Below, in pieces: positions 11,984 through 28,932 of a stretch of DNA of 35,427 bases. The stretch's first letter is position 1. Each line of letters begins with the position of its first letter. The stretch is from Myxacorys californica WJT36-NPBG1 (lineage in GTDB: Bacteria; Cyanobacteriota; Cyanobacteriia; Leptolyngbyales; Leptolyngbyaceae). Below the pieces are notes generated by a model that was given only the letters and a program-made list of their open reading frames with translations, had not been told where the DNA came from and did not search any database. Both the position numbers and the translations under genes were made by a program. The stretch covers positions 1 through 35,427 of the forward strand of contig JAHHHO010000054.1 in NCBI GenBank assembly GCA_019359315.1. Direction: 5' to 3'.

Positions 11984-12056
11984 GGGCATGTAGCTCAGTG
12001 GATAGAGCATTAGATTCCGGTTCTAAGGGTCGGGGGTTCGAATCCCTCCATGCTCG
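11984..12056 (+). tRNA. tRNA-Arg, anticodon CCG
   Basis: A 73-base cloverleaf. The acceptor stem GGGCATG (11984-11990) pairs with CATGCTC (12049-12055), discriminator G at 12056. The D arm contains TAGCTCAGTGGATAGAGCA, the anticodon stem is TTAGA/TCTAA, and the T arm contains GGGTTCGAATCCC. The anticodon CCG (12017-12019) reads CGG arginine codons. The 3' CCA is not encoded. A strong terminator follows within five bases. Confidence 0.96.
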
Positions 12057-12109: not shown

Positions 12110-13433
12110 TTATGAGCCGAACCGGAGGGCTTGACCTTGGACGGCTGTGTTGAGAGGGCCGCGATCGTAGGCCACTTGTCCACCAACGATCGTCACCTGT
12201 GCCCATCCGGTTAAGTTCCAACCTTCAAATGGACTCCAACCGCACTTTGTGACGACTTCCTCACGGAGTACGGGATGGTAGTGTTCTAAATCAACTAATA
12301 CCAAATCAGCATCGTAGCCTGGTTCGATTAAGCCCTTGTTAAGGATTTGATACGCTTTGGCAACTGCCGTTGACATCCACTTTGCCACTTGAGCAACGGA
12401 GCAGCGTTCTGCTTTAGCTTGGGTCAGCATCAATGCTAGCGATGTCTCAACTCCAGGCATTCCAGATGGAGTACTTGGGTAGGCTTGGGATTTTTCTTCT
12501 AAGGTGTGAGGAGTGTGATTGGTGGCGATGGAATCGATCACGCTATTGAGGAGCGCTTGCTAGAGAACCTCGTTGTCATGAGGCGATCGTATGGACGGGT
12601 TCATCTGCAACAGCGAACCGAGTTTTTCGTAGTCGTTGATATTGAGCAGGAGGTGTTGGGGTGTAACCTCTGCTGTCATCCAAGCCGGCTTCTCGTGACG
12701 CAGCAGATCTGTTTCTTCGGCAGTAGACATGTGCAGAATGTGCAGCCGTCGCCCGTACTTCTTGGAGAGCTTTAGAGCTAACTGGGTGGCATTGAGAGCG
12801 GCTTGATTGTCTTGAATTTGAGAATGAATGGCGGGATCAGTGCTTCCAGCAAACTGGGCGCGGCGATCGCGGATGCGATTTTGGTCTTCGGCGTGAACGG
12901 CGATCAAGCGATCGCCGTTGGCAAAAAAGGGATCTAATGCTGATTCTTCATTGACTAGTAAGTTGCCGTGCATTGATCCCATAAAGATTTTGATGCCAGG
13001 TGTGGGATTTGCACTGGTCAGATCGGGCAAATTCTCTGGCATTGCGCCGATAAAGAAGCCGTAATTTGCTAAACACTTTTGCCAGGCTCGGTTAAGCTTA
13101 TCGTCCAATGCGGCTTGAGGGGTGGTAAGCGGGTGAGTGTTAAGCATTTCTAAAAATGATGTCACTCCGCCTCACAGACGGGCACAACTTGCCGTAAACA
13201 AGTCTTCCTTATGTTCGAGTCCTGGTTCTTGAAGGTGGACTTGCGGATCAATCTACACCCGCAACAAAGTTAAGCCTGTTGCGTCAATAACAGTAGTTTC
13301 ACTTACTTGACTCTGATAAGCCGTCGCCAACTCGAATGATCTTGCCTGCCTGAACCTCAACATCCCCTAGAATATATTCTTCAGATAGAAGTAAAATCTG
13401 TGCGTGTTGAATGAGAAGAGATGACACAGACAT
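12110..13433 (-). pseudogene. pyrC: Decayed dihydroorotase gene (pyrC-type)
   Basis: Read from the ATG at 13433, the translation follows a dihydroorotase over its whole length but is broken at least four times. It starts MSVSSLLIQHAQILLLSEEY, runs to a frameshift near DGLSESSK, has an in-frame TAG just before IDPQVH, a TGA where I expect Lys/Arg before GGVTSFLEM, and a TAG at 12562-12560 in place of the usual Trp after HDNEVL. Substitutions also hit conserved positions: VHLQEPG where HFREPG is expected, and IATNHTPHT where IATDHAPHT is expected, losing the catalytic Asp. Metal-type residues such as GIKIFMG, VHAED and ILHMST survive. The two open pieces, 12110-12541 and 12560-13165, are in the same frame and are not separate genes. 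Expected family sequences are recalled, not searched. Confidence 0.85.
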
Positions 13434-13595: not shown

Positions 13596-14189
13596 ATGGC
13601 TCGTGTAGAAAACCCAGCACCGAATAGCAAGTCCTCATCGACCAAAAATGAGAATCCTTGGATAGAAGGGCTTAAAACCATTGGACTGAGTGCAGTGTTA
13701 GCGATCGGCATTCGTCAATTTGTGGCGGAGGCTCGCTATATTCCTTCTGGTTCGATGCTGCCGACGTTGCAAATCAACGATCGGTTGATTGTTGATAAGC
13801 TTGGCTACCGCTTTAGTAATCCTCAGCGTGGCGATGTGGTTGTGTTTTCGCCGACCGCCACGTTAGAAAAACAAAATTTCCACGATGCGTTTATCAAACG
13901 GGTGATTGGGCTGCCGGGTGACAAGGTTGAGGTCAAGGGCGGGCGCGTTTATGTGAACAATCAGCCGTTGCGGGAAGACTACATCGGCAAGGACGAAGCT
14001 CCGCAGTATCAGTGGAGTCCTGCTGTGGTTCCAGAGAATTCTTACTTGGTGTTGGGAGACAACCGGAACAATAGCTACGACAGCCATTACTGGGGATTTG
14101 TCCCGCGTGAGAAAATTATTGGTCGGGCCGTCGTGCGGTTTTGGCCCCCCGATCGAATTGGGGAAATTGTGCCAAAACCTAAATATTAA
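13596..14189 (+). CDS. lepB: Signal peptidase I
   Basis: Membrane serine protease that removes signal peptides from exported proteins, acting on the periplasmic or lumenal side. After a polar N-terminus there is one membrane segment (about residues 25-45). The catalytic Ser53 lies in YIPSGSMLP and the catalytic Lys101 in [11 protein letters not shown]. The later box [14 protein letters not shown] and GRAVVRFWP complete the S26 signature. At 197 residues with a single transmembrane segment it is typical of cyanobacterial and plastid forms. It is convergent with the dihydroorotase-like gene; 76 bp separate them with no clear terminator. Confidence 0.94.
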
Positions 14190-14265: not shown

Positions 14266-15555
14266 TCAGACCCAGACTTGTAAAACTTTTCCAGTGAGAG
14301 GTTTGTTGAGCCAGAAGGTATTGTTTGAGCGAGACAGGAGCGACTGAGGAGTGGCGTTCCAGGTTTGATTGGGATCAAATAAGACGAATTCAGAAGGAGC
14401 CTTAGACGAGGCTCCTTTTGCGTTGGGCATTGCCTCTATTGCTATTGGATTTTGCCCCAGGCATTCGGCAGGGCGAGAACTGAGCGCACGCCACAACTCC
14501 AAAGCAGACCATTGCTCAGTCGCAACAAAGGCTTGCCAGAGTAAGGGCAGTGCGAGTTCTAAGCCAAGTGCACCGGGGGGTGCTTCACCGAAGGAGACGG
14601 TTTTCTCTTCGTAGGTGTAAGGCGTGTGATCAACCGCGATCGCATCAATCACGCCCTCTTTAACGGCTTGCGCGATCGCGGCTCGATCCTCTGGGTTGCC
14701 GAGGGGTGGATCAAGGCGGAGGTTGGGATCGTAACTCGCAAGAGCTTTTGTGTCTAACAGCAAGTGCAGCCAGGTTGTGCTGGCTGTGATGGGAACGCCG
14801 CGAGATTTGGCAAGGCGAATCAGTTCGACGCTGCGGGCGGTGGAAATTCGCATCAGGTGAACGGGCGTTCCGATTTCTGCGACACATTCCAAAATGGCTG
14901 CAAGGGAAGCGGTTTCGGCCATGACAGGAATGCCCGATAAGCCAAAGCGCATGGAGTTGACGCCCTCGCGGATGATTCCTGTCCCTGCAAGTCCGGGATC
15001 AGAGGCCCACAGCGCGATCGCGGTGTTAAGGGGCTGAGCGTATTCTAAAAGCCGTCGAAGCAGCGTTAGATTCGTGATGGGTTTGCCGTCGGTAAAGCCT
15101 GTGATGTCGGCTTGGGCAAGTTCGAGCAGTTCGGTCATGTGCTGCCCTTCAGTATTGGTCGTCAGGGCTGCCCAACAACTGAGATGGGGGAGCGGACGTT
15201 GAGGAATGGACTGAGTTTTACGGGTAATCCAGGCAACAGTTGTTGGATTGTCGATCGCAGGATGGGTATTCGGGAGAATGTTCAGACGAGTGAAGCCACC
15301 CGCGATCGCAGCCTGCATCAGCGAATCCAATGTCTCGCGATCTTCAAATCCTGGCTCTCCGCTATGGCTATAGAGATCGACTAATCCCGGCGCTAAGATT
15401 AGCCCATCACAGGGTTGCACCTGAGCATCTGCGGGAATGTCAGAGAGATGGGACTCGATCGCTTGAATCACTCCATCCTGGATTAAAACATCGACAATTT
15501 GATCCGTGTTAGCGACCGGATCGAGGAGTCGGACTTGTTGAAGAAGAGACACCAT
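14266..15555 (-). CDS. Dihydroorotase-like protein lacking several metal ligands
   Basis: A 429-residue amidohydrolase of the dihydroorotase family. Family landmarks are LAPGLVDLYSHSGEPGFED (N-terminal metal region), LNILPNTHPA, ASTTWLHLLLD, AIAVDHTPYTYEEK and the C-terminal GKVLQVW. Compared with the class I pattern as I know it, only one His of the HxH motif is present (YSHSGEP), no carboxylated lysine is evident, and the HVCHVST position reads VHLMRIST, so a catalytic His is Arg. DH in AVDHTPY is kept. It may be a non-catalytic homologue, like the inactive dihydroorotases that pair with aspartate carbamoyltransferase, or it may act on another substrate. It starts 11 bp after the histidine phosphatase gene and is surely co-transcribed with it. 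Confidence 0.8.
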   Translation of the reverse strand: MVSLLQQVRLLDPVANTDQIVDVLIQDGVIQAIESHLSDIPADAQVQPCDGLILAPGLVDLYSHSGEPGFEDRETLDSLMQAAIAGGFTRLNILPNTHPAIDNPTTVAWITRKTQSIPQRPLPHLSCWAALTTNTEGQHMTELLELAQADITGFTDGKPITNLTLLRRLLEYAQPLNTAIALWASDPGLAGTGIIREGVNSMRFGLSGIPVMAETASLAAILECVAEIGTPVHLMRISTARSVELIRLAKSRGVPITASTTWLHLLLDTKALASYDPNLRLDPPLGNPEDRAAIAQAVKEGVIDAIAVDHTPYTYEEKTVSFGEAPPGALGLELALPLLWQAFVATEQWSALELWRALSSRPAECLGQNPIAIEAMPNAKGASSKAPSEFVLFDPNQTWNATPQSLLSRSNNTFWLNKPLTGKVLQVWV

Positions 15556-15566
15556 AACCCTAATGA

Positions 15567-16895
15567 TTAAAGCGCTCCGGCAGCAGTTTTGTCTAAGACG
15601 CCACCTAGATGCGTGGTAATATTCATCGCCATCAGCATTGGTGTGCTGTCTGCACCGTTGGGATAGTCGATGACGCTAACGGCTCCGTTGCCTTGCTTGA
15701 AGTTCCAGAAGGATTCGGCTCCCAGTCCGGCAATGTAGCAGAGAATGGCTTTGTTGATCGCATCGTGAGCAACCACTAAAACAGTGCAGTTTTGACCGGA
15801 GTAGGATTGGACAATCGCGTTCCAACCCGCGATCGCGCGTTCCCAAACCTGCTCTAGGTTCTCACCTTCTGGCATTTGTACGGTCTCAGGATGAAGCTGC
15901 CACTGATGCAGTAAGCCTGGATAACTCTGTTCAATTTCGGCTTCAAACTTGCCTTCCCACAGTCCGTGGCTGATCTCGCGGAGGTCGTCGCGGGTATCAA
16001 GCTGCACGTCGGGATGGTGTTTGAGAATGATCTCAGCCGTTTCTTTTGGACGTAGCATCGAGCTAGTCACGGCGAAGTCAATCTGAACTGATTTGAGGAA
16101 TTCGCCTGCTTGAGCAGCTTGGCGGCGTCCGTTGTCGTTCAGCGGCACATCAATTTGCCCCTGAAATTGTCCGTTGCGGTTCCACTCGGTTTCACCGTGA
16201 CGGACTAAGAGGAGCCTAGGACCTTGATGCTTGGGTCTGAGGTTGGGAAGGGGTTCACCTAGATGAGAAGTGATATTGAGAGATTCAATCTGGACAGATT
16301 GCCCTAACTCGCCGGAAAAGTTTAGGATGCTGATGCCACAGTTGGAGATTTGAAAGCGCTGATAGGACTCGGGTGGGAGCGCGATCGCGCTGTAAATCAA
16401 CGCCCGGTTAATGCCGCTATGCGCTACGACTAGCACGGTCTGTCCTGCATGGTTTGCCAGAAGCGTTTGCCAAAATCGGCGGGCTTGCTCAAATAGTGCC
16501 GGAATTGGAAAGAAGTCACTGCCATCCGGTAGAGTCATCTTCAGCTTGTGGGGCTGGTCTTTCCAATCGCGAAACTCATCTGGATATTTTGATTCGACTT
16601 CTGTAAAAGGCAATCCTTCCCACAAGGGTAAGCTGATTTCTTTGAGGTCGTCTGTGGTTTGCAGGGCAGGCGGATTGGGTAAGCCGGACACGATAATGTC
16701 TGCGGTTCGTTTTGCCCGTTGCAGCGGACTGCTATAGATGGCATCAAACGTTAAGTCTTGCAGGGCAGTGGCAACCTGAGCCGCCATTGCTTCGCCTTTG
16801 TCTGTCAGTGTTGACAAGTCACAATGCCCCTGAACTCTCCGTTCTGCGTTGTAGCTGCTCTCTCCGTGGCGCACCAGAATAACGCGAGTAGTCAA
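15567..16895 (-). CDS. Two-domain histidine phosphatase (phosphoglycerate-mutase-like)
   Basis: A 442-residue protein made of two complete histidine phosphatase domains. The first has RHGESSYN (His10), EISLPLWEG and VVAHSGINRA (His159). The second has RHGETEWNRNGQ (His233), EISHGLWEG and VVAHDAINKA (His377). Each half ends in a similar NIT(S/T)HLG motif, so it arose by internal duplication and both active sites look intact. Substrates may be phosphosugars, phosphoserine or others; this cannot be told from sequence. No signal peptide or membrane segment is seen. It is the first gene of a two-gene unit with the dihydroorotase-like protein, 11 bp apart. Confidence 0.88.
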   Translation of the reverse strand: MTTRVILVRHGESSYNAERRVQGHCDLSTLTDKGEAMAAQVATALQDLTFDAIYSSPLQRAKRTADIIVSGLPNPPALQTTDDLKEISLPLWEGLPFTEVESKYPDEFRDWKDQPHKLKMTLPDGSDFFPIPALFEQARRFWQTLLANHAGQTVLVVAHSGINRALIYSAIALPPESYQRFQISNCGISILNFSGELGQSVQIESLNITSHLGEPLPNLRPKHQGPRLLLVRHGETEWNRNGQFQGQIDVPLNDNGRRQAAQAGEFLKSVQIDFAVTSSMLRPKETAEIILKHHPDVQLDTRDDLREISHGLWEGKFEAEIEQSYPGLLHQWQLHPETVQMPEGENLEQVWERAIAGWNAIVQSYSGQNCTVLVVAHDAINKAILCYIAGLGAESFWNFKQGNGAVSVIDYPNGADSTPMLMAMNITTHLGGVLDKTAAGAL

Positions 16896-24778: not shown

Positions 24779-25201
24779 ATGCCCTCAGAACCCCACCAAA
24801 ACCATCTATTAATCATCGAAGACGATAAAGGACGCCGAGAATTTGTCTTAGATGCGCCTGTGTACTCGATTGGGCGAGATCCGAAGTGTGACATTCGGTT
24901 GGTGTCACAATTTGTGTCTCGTCGTCACGCAACGCTGTTGCAGTTGCCCAACGAAGATGGGACTTACTATTACCGAATTGTAGATGGCAACCTCAAAGGA
25001 AAGCCCAGCGCGAATGGGTTGCTAATCAATGGTCGCAAGCTTCAGCAGTATGACCTGCGGAATGAAGATGAAGTGGTGTTTGGTCCGCAGGTTCGAGCGA
25101 TTTACTACTTACTAAAGCGCGATGCTGTCTTGACTGTGCCGCCTGACGAGTTTGACATTACTCTGATTAGCCCAAATATGGTGGGCGATCCTGAAGATTA
25201 A
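24779..25201 (+). CDS. FHA domain protein
   Basis: A 140-residue protein that is almost entirely one FHA domain, which binds phosphothreonine peptides. The conserved residues are in YSIGRDPKCDIRL (Gly-Arg), VSRRHATLL (Ser and His) and SANGLLINGRKL (Asn-Gly). No kinase gene is adjacent, so its phosphoprotein partner is unknown. It stands alone, with 229 bp upstream and 198 bp downstream that contain no gene. ATG at 24779; no clear ribosome-binding site. Confidence 0.88.
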   Translation: MPSEPHQNHLLIIEDDKGRREFVLDAPVYSIGRDPKCDIRLVSQFVSRRHATLLQLPNEDGTYYYRIVDGNLKGKPSANGLLINGRKLQQYDLRNEDEVVFGPQVRAIYYLLKRDAVLTVPPDEFDITLISPNMVGDPED

Positions 25202-26694: not shown

Positions 26695-27639
26695 ATGTCT
26701 GTCTTTGCTCCTCTGATCGGACAACCCCAAGCCGTGGAACTGCTGGCACAAGCCATTGCTCGCGATCGCGTTGCGCCCGCCTATCTTTTCGCGGGTTCTT
26801 CGGGCATTGGCAAACGCTTAGCGGCTCAATGCTTCTTGAAACTTTTGTTGTCTCCATCGCCTCGACTGTCAATTGCGCCCTCACTTCAGCACCGCATCAC
26901 GGCGCGAAATCATCCTGATTTATTGTGGGTCGAGCCGACGTATCTTTACCAAGGCAAACGGCTCTCTCCAATCGAGGCAGACGCGGCAGGGCTAAAACGC
27001 AAAACTCCGCCGATGGTACGGCTGGAGCAGATTCGAGAAATCACACAGTTCCTTGGTCGTCCGCCAATGGAAGCGCCGCGATCGGTGGTGATCATGGATG
27101 CTGCCGAAACCATGCCCGAATCGGCGGCGAATGCTCTGCTTAAAACCCTAGAAGAACCTGGAAAAGCAACGATTATTTTGCTCGCTCCGAGTGTCGAAGC
27201 GCTGCTACCAACGCTCGTTTCTCGCTGCCAGCGCATTCCCTTTTACCGCCTAGATCCCGTTGCGATGACGCAAGTTCTGCGGCAAGTGGGACAGGAAGAG
27301 ATTTTGTCTCAGCCGCAAATTTTAGACCTGGCACAAGGCAGCCCTGGAGCCGCGATCATGCATCGTCAAAAGCTCGAAACGATTCCACCAGACTTGCTCT
27401 CAGCGCTGACCTTGCCTCGGACGTTGCGAGAGGCATTGAGTCTTGCCCGCGCGATCGCAAAAACCTTAGACAGTGACGCGCAGTTGTGGCTCGTGGACTA
27501 TCTCCAGCAGGTGTATTGGTCACAATCAGGTAGTGCAGCCGCGCTCCAATTGCTCGAAGATGCTCGAAAGTACCTACTAGCCTACGTTCAGCCGCAGCTT
27601 GTCTGGGAAGTTACCCTGATGTCAATGCTGAATGGTTAG
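26695..27639 (+). CDS. holB: DNA polymerase III delta' subunit
   Basis: Clamp-loader subunit of the replicative polymerase. The protein (314 residues from the ATG at 26695) begins [17 protein letters not shown]. The P-loop position reads GSSGIGKR, with Arg after the Lys, which fits the known loss of ATP binding in delta'. [10 protein letters not shown] and the SRC motif (LVSRCQRI) are conserved. The usual zinc-ligand cysteines between the P-loop and NHPDLL are absent here. The frame is open to a TTG at 26674, but MSVFAPL is the better start. It ends in a 4-bp overlap with the convergent pyrD. A CTGT-rich stretch precedes the start. Confidence 0.93.
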
Positions 27640-28802
27640 TGGTGAGCCAACCCGATCGCGTCTCCGATCGAGGTCATTCCGTGCTGGTCTAGCTTCTGCA
27701 CCAAGCCTTGAAGAATGCGGCGAACCATGCCAGGGCCTTCGTAAATCCAGCCCGTGTAAACTTGAACGAGACTTGCCCCTGCCGCGATTTTCTCCCAGGC
27801 ATCATCTGGAGTGAAAACGCCTCCGACTCCAATAATCGGCAGCTTGCCACCCGTTTGTTTGTAGATGAAATGGATCACTTCGGTCGATCGCGCTCTCACT
27901 GGCATACCACTAATGCCACCTGCTTCCTCTGTGACGGGTTTCCCGGTTGCCGCGATCGTTGCTGTTTTCAATCTATCGCGACGAATTGTTGTATTCGTCG
28001 CAATGACTCCTGACAGAGCGTAGCGCTGAGCTAGACTCACCACATCAGCAATGTCTGCCCAATCCAAGTCAGGCGCAATTTTGATAAGAAGCGGCTTGGC
28101 AGCGCTATTTTCCTGTTGTAAGGCAGACAAAATTGGTTCTAGCTGATCGGTTGCTTGCAGCGATCGTAGTCCTGGTGTGTTGGGAGAGCTGACATTGACG
28201 ACAAAATAATCTCCTAATTCTTTCAGCAGCCGAAAACTTCCTAAATAATCCTCTGCTGCGTCTTCTAACGGCGTGATCTTCGACTTCCCTAGATTCACCC
28301 CAACCGGAAACGCGCCCTTTCGATGCATCAATCGCTCTGCTAGGGCTGCCGCGCCTTGGTTGTTGAATCCCATGCGATTGAGGGCTGCTAAATCCTCTGG
28401 CAAGCGAAACAAGCGAGGCTGCGGATTTCCGGGTTGAGCATGAAGCGTGACTGTCCCAACTTCTGCAAAGCCAAAGCCAAAATTTGACCAAATATTGGCT
28501 GCTACGCCATCTTTATCAAATCCTGCGGCGAGTCCAATCGGATTTGAGAACGCATGTCCCCACAGCGTCTGCTCTAGCCGAGCATTCTGAAAGCCATAGA
28601 GCTGATCTAATCGTGATCGCACCCAACGCTTCGGAGCAGAATTGGTATTAAACCAACTGAGCGATCGCAGCGTTTGCTGAGCCAACCATTCTGGATCAGC
28701 GTTCACTCCTGAAAATAGAACCGGACGCACAATTGCTCGATACAGATCAGCCAACAGAACCTCAATCTTGCGATCGCAACTCACGAACCCAAAAATCACC
28801 AT
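27636..28802 (-). CDS. pyrD: Dihydroorotate dehydrogenase (quinone), class 2
   Basis: Oxidises dihydroorotate to orotate with FMN and passes electrons to quinone at the membrane. Class 2 features: an N-terminal amphipathic region ([12 protein letters not shown]), [10 protein letters not shown], the substrate and FMN stretch FNNQG, and the catalytic serine in NVSSPNTPG (Ser206). GVIATNTT and IIGVGGV bind FMN. The frame is open to 28886, but the ATG at 28802 (388 residues) has GGGAG 11 bases upstream and fits the family length. Its stop TAA shares bases with the holB stop. Pyrimidine-related genes at 12-15 kb are not in the same unit. Confidence 0.93.
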
Positions 28803-28932
28803 AGCGCATCTCACTCCCTTCCAGGGCACTCTAAGCCAGGAGCACGAGTGTTTTCGTCTCTTTTTCGTTGCATTGCCCAATTGCATTGCCCAGAAATTGC
28901 ACCGCTATCGCTAGTTTTAACCGCCAGATCCT

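Follow-up and report, generated by a model that had tools for sequence, protein, structure and literature searches.

Probable recent inactivation of the PRK07575-type dihydroorotase gene in the cyanobacterium Myxacorys californica

Dihydroorotase carries out the third step of pyrimidine synthesis and is needed wherever pyrimidines are made de novo. The window analyzed here, a stretch of 35,427 nucleotides from Myxacorys californica WJT36-NPBG1 (contig JAHHHO010000054.1 of assembly GCA_019359315.1), contains a broken gene of this type, an open dihydroorotase-like paralogue on the other side of the signal peptidase gene lepB, and, further along, the gene for the next pathway step. The features referred to below are the following:

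12110..13433, minus strand: PRK07575-type dihydroorotase pseudogene (profile NF005751; ends and lesions mapped)
13302..13366, minus strand: region in which the reading frame changes (overlap of both frames in tblastn; DNA alignment)
13253..13255, minus strand: in-frame stop TAG
13220..13237, minus strand: HLQEPG, where relatives have HFREPG (substrate arginine to glutamine)
13172..13174, minus strand: in-frame stop TGA
12560..12562, minus strand: in-frame stop TAG
12506..12526, minus strand: ATNHTPH, where relatives have ATDHAPH (aspartate to asparagine)
13596..14189, plus strand: lepB, signal peptidase I, open, between the pseudogene and the paralogue (TIGR02227; synteny)
14266..15555, minus strand: PRK07369 dihydroorotase-like paralogue, open, without most canonical metal ligands (NF005614, 645 bits; cut-off 456)
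27636..28886, minus strand: pyrD, open, encoding the quinone-dependent dihydroorotate dehydrogenase of the following pathway step (NF003651, 555 bits)

The pseudogene spans the full length of a PRK07575-family dihydroorotase and is interrupted by three in-frame stops and one frameshift. Its start codon ends at 13433 and its natural stop, TAA, lies at 12110-12112, so the coordinates at which the earlier note had placed a decaying dihydroorotase gene are exact. In tblastn the first 44 codons (13433-13302) are read in a different frame from the remainder (13366-12113), and, aligned at the DNA level with Myxacorys almedinensis, the pseudogene carries one additional base near 13305. With the stops read through, the pseudogene passes the PRK07575 profile (NF005751, 686 bits; cut-off 529); it falls below the cut-off of the class I dihydroorotase profile (TIGR00857, 250.5 bits; cut-off 279.05); for both of its pieces the second-best profile is NF006559 (PRK09060). 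The continuous reading frame expected of PRK07575 is absent, the family motif DPQVHFREPG reads DPQVHLQEPG, and the catalytic aspartate of ATDH is replaced in ATNH. Over 395 residues the pseudogene shares 83% identity with its M. almedinensis counterpart, and it is flanked by tRNA-Arg (11984-12056) on one side and lepB on the other; the order paralogue-lepB-PRK07575 recurs at many of the cyanobacterial loci (80 in all) compared by synteny. Intact PRK07575 members are probably catalytic dihydroorotases, judging from their family and from the alternation with class II PyrC described below.

Motifs were compared in 17 near full-length matches from the 80 loci, M. almedinensis included, with loci L048 and L083 left out because they hold only remnants. 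DPQVHFR[ED]PG is found in all 17, and 16 of them are open with ATDHAPHT in frame, while the remaining one (L036) is itself broken yet retains ATDHAPHT further on. Both substitutions pointed out in the earlier note, HFREPG to HLQEPG and ATDH to ATNH, are thus confirmed at otherwise conserved positions. The glutamine replacing the first metal histidine (DPQVH) was considered as a further sign of decay and rejected, since all 17 relatives have DPQVH and Porphyromonas 2GWN also has glutamine. The aspartate-to-asparagine change was likewise rejected as proof of death by itself, because ATNH, as in the pseudogene, occurs in an open PRK09060 dihydroorotase gene on a Sphingomonas plasmid (L253:4989-6308). 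The earlier note had held that finding these changes in active enzymes of relatives would speak against decay; the Sphingomonas gene touches this argument without overturning the reading, and the case for a pseudogene is carried by the stops and the frameshift, not by the aspartate change.

Myxacorys almedinensis A, the nearest named relative found (paralogue 79% identical) and the only congener compared, has an open PRK07575 copy. In 10 outgroup proteins 244 columns are invariant; at these, 22 lineage-only changes fall on the window's copy and 2 on that of M. almedinensis (sign test, p = 3.6e-5). The corresponding counts in control genes are 3 and 2 for the paralogue, 0 and 1 for lepB, 3 and 4 for the gene at 15567-16895, and, with just four outgroups each, 1 and 1 for pyrD, 5 and 2 for pyrB, and 4 and 1 for pyrF, the last two leaning slightly the same way as the pseudogene. 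At invariant bases the pseudogene has 32 single-base changes, compared with 3 in M. almedinensis; 20 of the 32 are transitions, and codon positions 1, 2, and 3 account for 16, 14, and 2. The dN/dS ratio of the pseudogene relative to M. almedinensis is not raised (0.040, with a saturated dS of 2.2), which we attribute to the saturation itself and to the gene having been constrained for most of the branch. General decay of the region was rejected: after exclusion of 10 of 35 rows that represented overlapping open reading frames in other frames, 24 of the 25 orthologues common to the window and the M. almedinensis contig are free of stops over the part that aligns.

The genome is a draft, and the stops and the frameshift could in principle have been introduced into a functional gene by faulty sequencing or assembly. 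We regard this as extremely improbable, because the neighboring genes are clean and because 22 changes at otherwise invariant positions, mixing transitions and transversions and falling at codon positions 1 and 2, are hard to ascribe to base-calling noise. The gene at 12110-13433 is therefore very probably a recently inactivated gene for the only recognizable catalytic dihydroorotase of this genome, belonging to the PRK07575 branch. By a rough estimate, the gene has evolved without selection during some 5-7% of the branch that began with the split from M. almedinensis, a crude value that takes about 20 of the 22 changes as neutral, the branches as equal, and the dS of the control genes as usable; together with the open M. 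almedinensis copy, it bears out the earlier suggestion that inactivation was recent.

The neighboring paralogue passes the class I dihydroorotase profile (TIGR00857, 346.8 bits; cut-off 279.05), and the NCBIfam label "dihydroorotase" on PRK07369 would alone hide the gap left by the broken gene. Structure prediction (mean pLDDT 87) places its fold nearest to that of Aquifex dihydroorotase in the complex with aspartate carbamoyltransferase (ATCase) (3d6n, TM 0.89). In an alignment to 3d6n, in which the His180 column is approximate, the positions of Aquifex His61, His63, Arg65, Asp153, His180, and His232 are occupied by Tyr, His, Gly, Asp, Trp, and Arg, so that, unlike in a zinc dihydroorotase, four of the six residues are lost and two (His63 and Asp153) remain. 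Judging from this alignment, Arg65 is presumably the substrate residue of the Aquifex enzyme. The same pattern characterizes the family: among 85 PRK07369 sequences, the residue most often found at each of these positions is, in the same order, Tyr in 83, His in 66, Gly in 77, Asp in 81, Trp in 58, and Arg in 81, and the Arg65 position is Gly or Ser in 84. All 85 have the counterparts of Asp305 and His306 as well as another invariant histidine, which, with Asp153 kept in 81, indicates a conserved pocket; with the tyrosine for His61, the Gly or Ser for Arg65, and the variable His63, the family nevertheless looks unlike a zinc dihydroorotase. The first-site zinc ligands of the Aquifex enzyme are His61, His63, and Asp153, as given in PMC3880350.

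A PRK07369-like second match, recognized by position and score, occurs in all 33 genomes of the order examined below, and reading the two whose scores stood out (G023 and G024) showed them to be of the same type. We think, by analogy with Pseudomonas pDHO, that PRK07369 may be a partner of ATCase. Pseudomonas PyrC'/pDHO is likewise reported to be dihydroorotase-like without conserved zinc-binding residues (PMC2770081) and to have no activity of its own, although ATCase needs it to be active (PMC7053772). Unlike pDHO, PRK07369 is cyanobacterial and does not lie beside pyrB here, pyrB being on contig C14. A relative on a Ruegeria plasmid, with PRK09059 as its best profile (below cut-off) and the motif VDIGVKVCEPG, lies one gene from pyrB.

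A replacement was sought in the whole M. californica assembly (5.97 Mb, 128 contigs, estimated 99.98% complete). PF01979 gave seven matches, namely the pseudogene, the paralogue, and five others; TIGR00857 gave two real matches, the pseudogene and the paralogue, and four others at 12.9 to 17.4 bits; for class II PyrC (TIGR00856) nothing exceeded the cut-off, and the sole match, at 21.2 bits, was the pseudogene itself. Another working copy, which the earlier note had counted among the possible explanations, was accordingly not seen with these three profiles in the assembly. The five other PF01979 proteins invite the idea that one of them now performs the reaction, but judging from sequence they are probably a urease, a guanine deaminase, a pair of cytosine deaminase-like proteins, and a protein resembling N-acetylglucosamine-6-phosphate deacetylase; as four of them are those with 12.9 to 17.4 bits on the dihydroorotase profile and the fifth does not appear at E-values up to 10, such a takeover is very unlikely.

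The remaining pathway was searched with a joined query of six Escherichia coli K-12 proteins. PyrB (contig C14), PyrE (C95), and PyrF (C120) are present without stops, and relative to M. almedinensis the dN/dS values are 0.05 for pyrB, 0.10 for pyrD, and 0.08 for pyrF. A further PyrB-like match on contig C6, flagged with two stops, corresponds to an open 311-residue frame and is presumably ornithine carbamoyltransferase. Two matches to Upp-type uracil phosphoribosyltransferase were found, the one on contig C109 containing a single flagged TAA within the region scored. No match to a UraA-type permease was obtained in this genome or in G129 or G261 (genomes of the class sample below), whereas M. 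almedinensis has two.

Class II (E. coli-type) PyrC, defined by TIGR00856, has by family name the same reaction as PRK07575 and, unlike PRK07575, is not found in the window's genome. Among 33 genomes of the order with completeness of at least 95%, an open PRK07575 gene is found in 24 and class II PyrC (501.9 to 521.8 bits) in 7, without overlap. The two genomes left over, the window's and G032, each carry a broken PRK07575 gene and no class II PyrC. Among 289 genomes of the class with completeness of at least 98%, PRK07575 is matched in 160 (154 over the cut-off, including the window's broken copy) and class II PyrC in 137. Ten genomes, read off by eye, are on both lists (G035, G075, G105, G108, G114, G125, G155, G156, G165, and G186), six of them with PRK07575 over the cut-off, and the lists together cover 160 + 137 - 10 = 287 genomes, leaving G199 and G261. 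The six matches below the cut-off, identified by E-value, are in G032, G035, G075, G105, G129, and G156. PRK07575 is apparently intact in 153 of the 289 genomes, an upper bound, because stop status is lacking for the weakest matches (among them G058, G069, and G108).

In five of the 289 genomes, neither type appears to be represented by a working enzyme: the window's own (G000), G032, and G129, which carry a broken PRK07575 gene without class II PyrC, and G199 and G261, in which neither type nor any remnant was found and which may reflect assembly gaps. Hydantoinase-like genes in G129 and G199 were considered as dihydroorotases and rejected, judged from sequence only. Class II PyrC is absent in three of the seven genomes with a broken or partial PRK07575 gene, whereas neither type is present in 2 of the 282 others (Fisher's test, p = 8.6e-5); of the seven, G000, G032, and G129 were read as sequence, and the other four were taken by weak E-values and may be cut by contig ends. 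The remnant in Kastovskya adunca (locus L048; apparently G163) lies below the search threshold, and its genome is counted among the 282; when it or G108 is moved to the broken side, the contrast becomes 3 of 8 versus 2 of 281 (p = 1.4e-4), and further uncounted short remnants would weaken it more. As the random assembly-gap rate looks to be near 0.7%, three of seven exceeds what random gaps would give, although binning may lose acquired genes more often.

Broken PRK07575 and class II PyrC occur in the same genome in Trichocoleus sp. FACHB-40 and Kastovskya adunca, and Symplocastrum torsivum provides a third named broken copy. Most broken copies met sit in genomes with class II PyrC, and the two types largely alternate, a class-wide alternation in which broken copies are caught part-way. 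When 14 class II loci were compared (seven from the order, five from the class, and two from named relatives), no neighbor within 1.5 kb was common to more than two of them, as expected of an acquired gene, so there is no syntenic hole to inspect. A loss in Phormidesmis priestleyi, suggested by the missing match beside lepB, was rejected, because an open copy apparently lies on another contig. In G024 and in G023, the latter apparently this species, open PRK07575 is on a different contig from PRK07369 (observation at L257:559-2891), and a small PRK07575-like fragment remains near PRK07369 in G024, an arrangement that suggests relocation or re-acquisition. No paper on dihydroorotase redundancy in cyanobacteria was found among titles and abstract openings of the openly licensed literature.

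The loss in M. californica fits this known kind of process, PRK07575 alternating with class II PyrC; the unusual point is that no replacement is visible while the tested pathway genes pyrB, pyrD, pyrE, and pyrF are open. Selection on PRK07575 would have been lifted because another source of dihydroorotate or pyrimidines took over. Our leading guess, held tentatively and short of an even chance, is an acquired dihydroorotase missing from, or unrecognized in, the 128-contig draft; against it stand the near-complete assembly in which no replacement was found and the share of genomes with broken or partial copies that lack class II PyrC, higher than random gaps would leave. The alternatives are dependence on uptake and takeover by the paralogue, both raised in the earlier note. 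If the strain lived on imported pyrimidines and no longer completed the de novo pathway, the two Upp matches and the two cytosine deaminase-like proteins, named from sequence, could salvage bases, and non-axenic Myxacorys collection strains are described in PMC8354539, the window's strain perhaps not being one of them. The stop-free genes and the low dN/dS of pyrB, pyrD, and pyrF argue against long-standing auxotrophy, while a very recent loss would leave no visible decay; as the permease match present twice in M. almedinensis is also missing, uptake appears rather unlikely, a judgment for which transport was searched as UraA-type permeases.

That the PRK07369 neighbor now makes dihydroorotate despite missing most of the usual zinc ligands has several points in its favor: the gene is open and under selection (dN/dS 0.096 relative to M. 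almedinensis), no other open class I-like match remains in G000, G032, or G261, and its pocket is conserved. In addition, a PyrC paralogue without the conserved zinc residues is cited as active (PMC2770081), and replacement of second-site ligands in Aquifex dihydroorotase is reported to leave activity unaffected (PMC3880350). On the other side, in 31 of the 33 order genomes the PRK07369-like match is accompanied by an open PRK07575 or a class II gene, which indicates, for the order, that PRK07369 alone is normally insufficient; the family has lost the residues matching His61 and Arg65 and is variable at His63, the window's copy has gained no ligand at the positions examined, and the place of the Ruegeria relative near pyrB points to an ATCase partner. 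Rescue by the paralogue is thus unlikely, although the gene is indeed open, and it is quite improbable that a few cyanobacteria (the window's strain, G032, and possibly G129 and G261) make dihydroorotate with PRK07369, the handover having just happened here and the old gene being still readable. A photosynthetic bacterium without a recognizable dihydroorotase is nevertheless a natural test of PRK07369 catalysis.

Apart from the acquired dihydroorotase that we tentatively favor for this strain, the alternation itself offers a lead. Glutamine in place of the first metal histidine is common to the PRK07575, PRK09060, and PRK09236 members read, 2GWN included. By profile, the PRK09060/PyrC2-type dihydroorotases belong to the same branch as PRK07575 and share the motif QVHFREPG; PRK09060 proteins are 44-47% identical to M. 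almedinensis PRK07575, and PyrC2 of Pseudomonas aeruginosa probably belongs to PRK09060. Zur-regulated zinc-limitation clusters are described in PMC2770081, and their content is matched by a gene set in Burkholderia arboris, which gives the zinc-sparing lead for PRK07575. This set (L255:535-5311), where the gene table has no features, comprises ZigA, FolE2, a 6-pyruvoyl tetrahydropterin synthase-like protein, and a hexapeptide protein together with a PRK09060 gene (NF006559, 746 bits). Unlike the PRK09060/PyrC2 genes of zinc-limitation clusters, PRK07575 adjoins lepB. By this analogy, the cyanobacterial alternation may be one between a zinc-sparing and a zinc-dependent enzyme.

Two other observations concern the window. 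The single protein encoded at 15567-16895 has two stretches matching the alpha-ribazole phosphatase profile and apparently consists of two histidine-phosphatase halves. The 140-residue FHA-domain protein encoded at 24779-25201 shares 99.3% identity with that of M. almedinensis, and the other 23 stop-free proteins shared with that species are about 63-98% identical.
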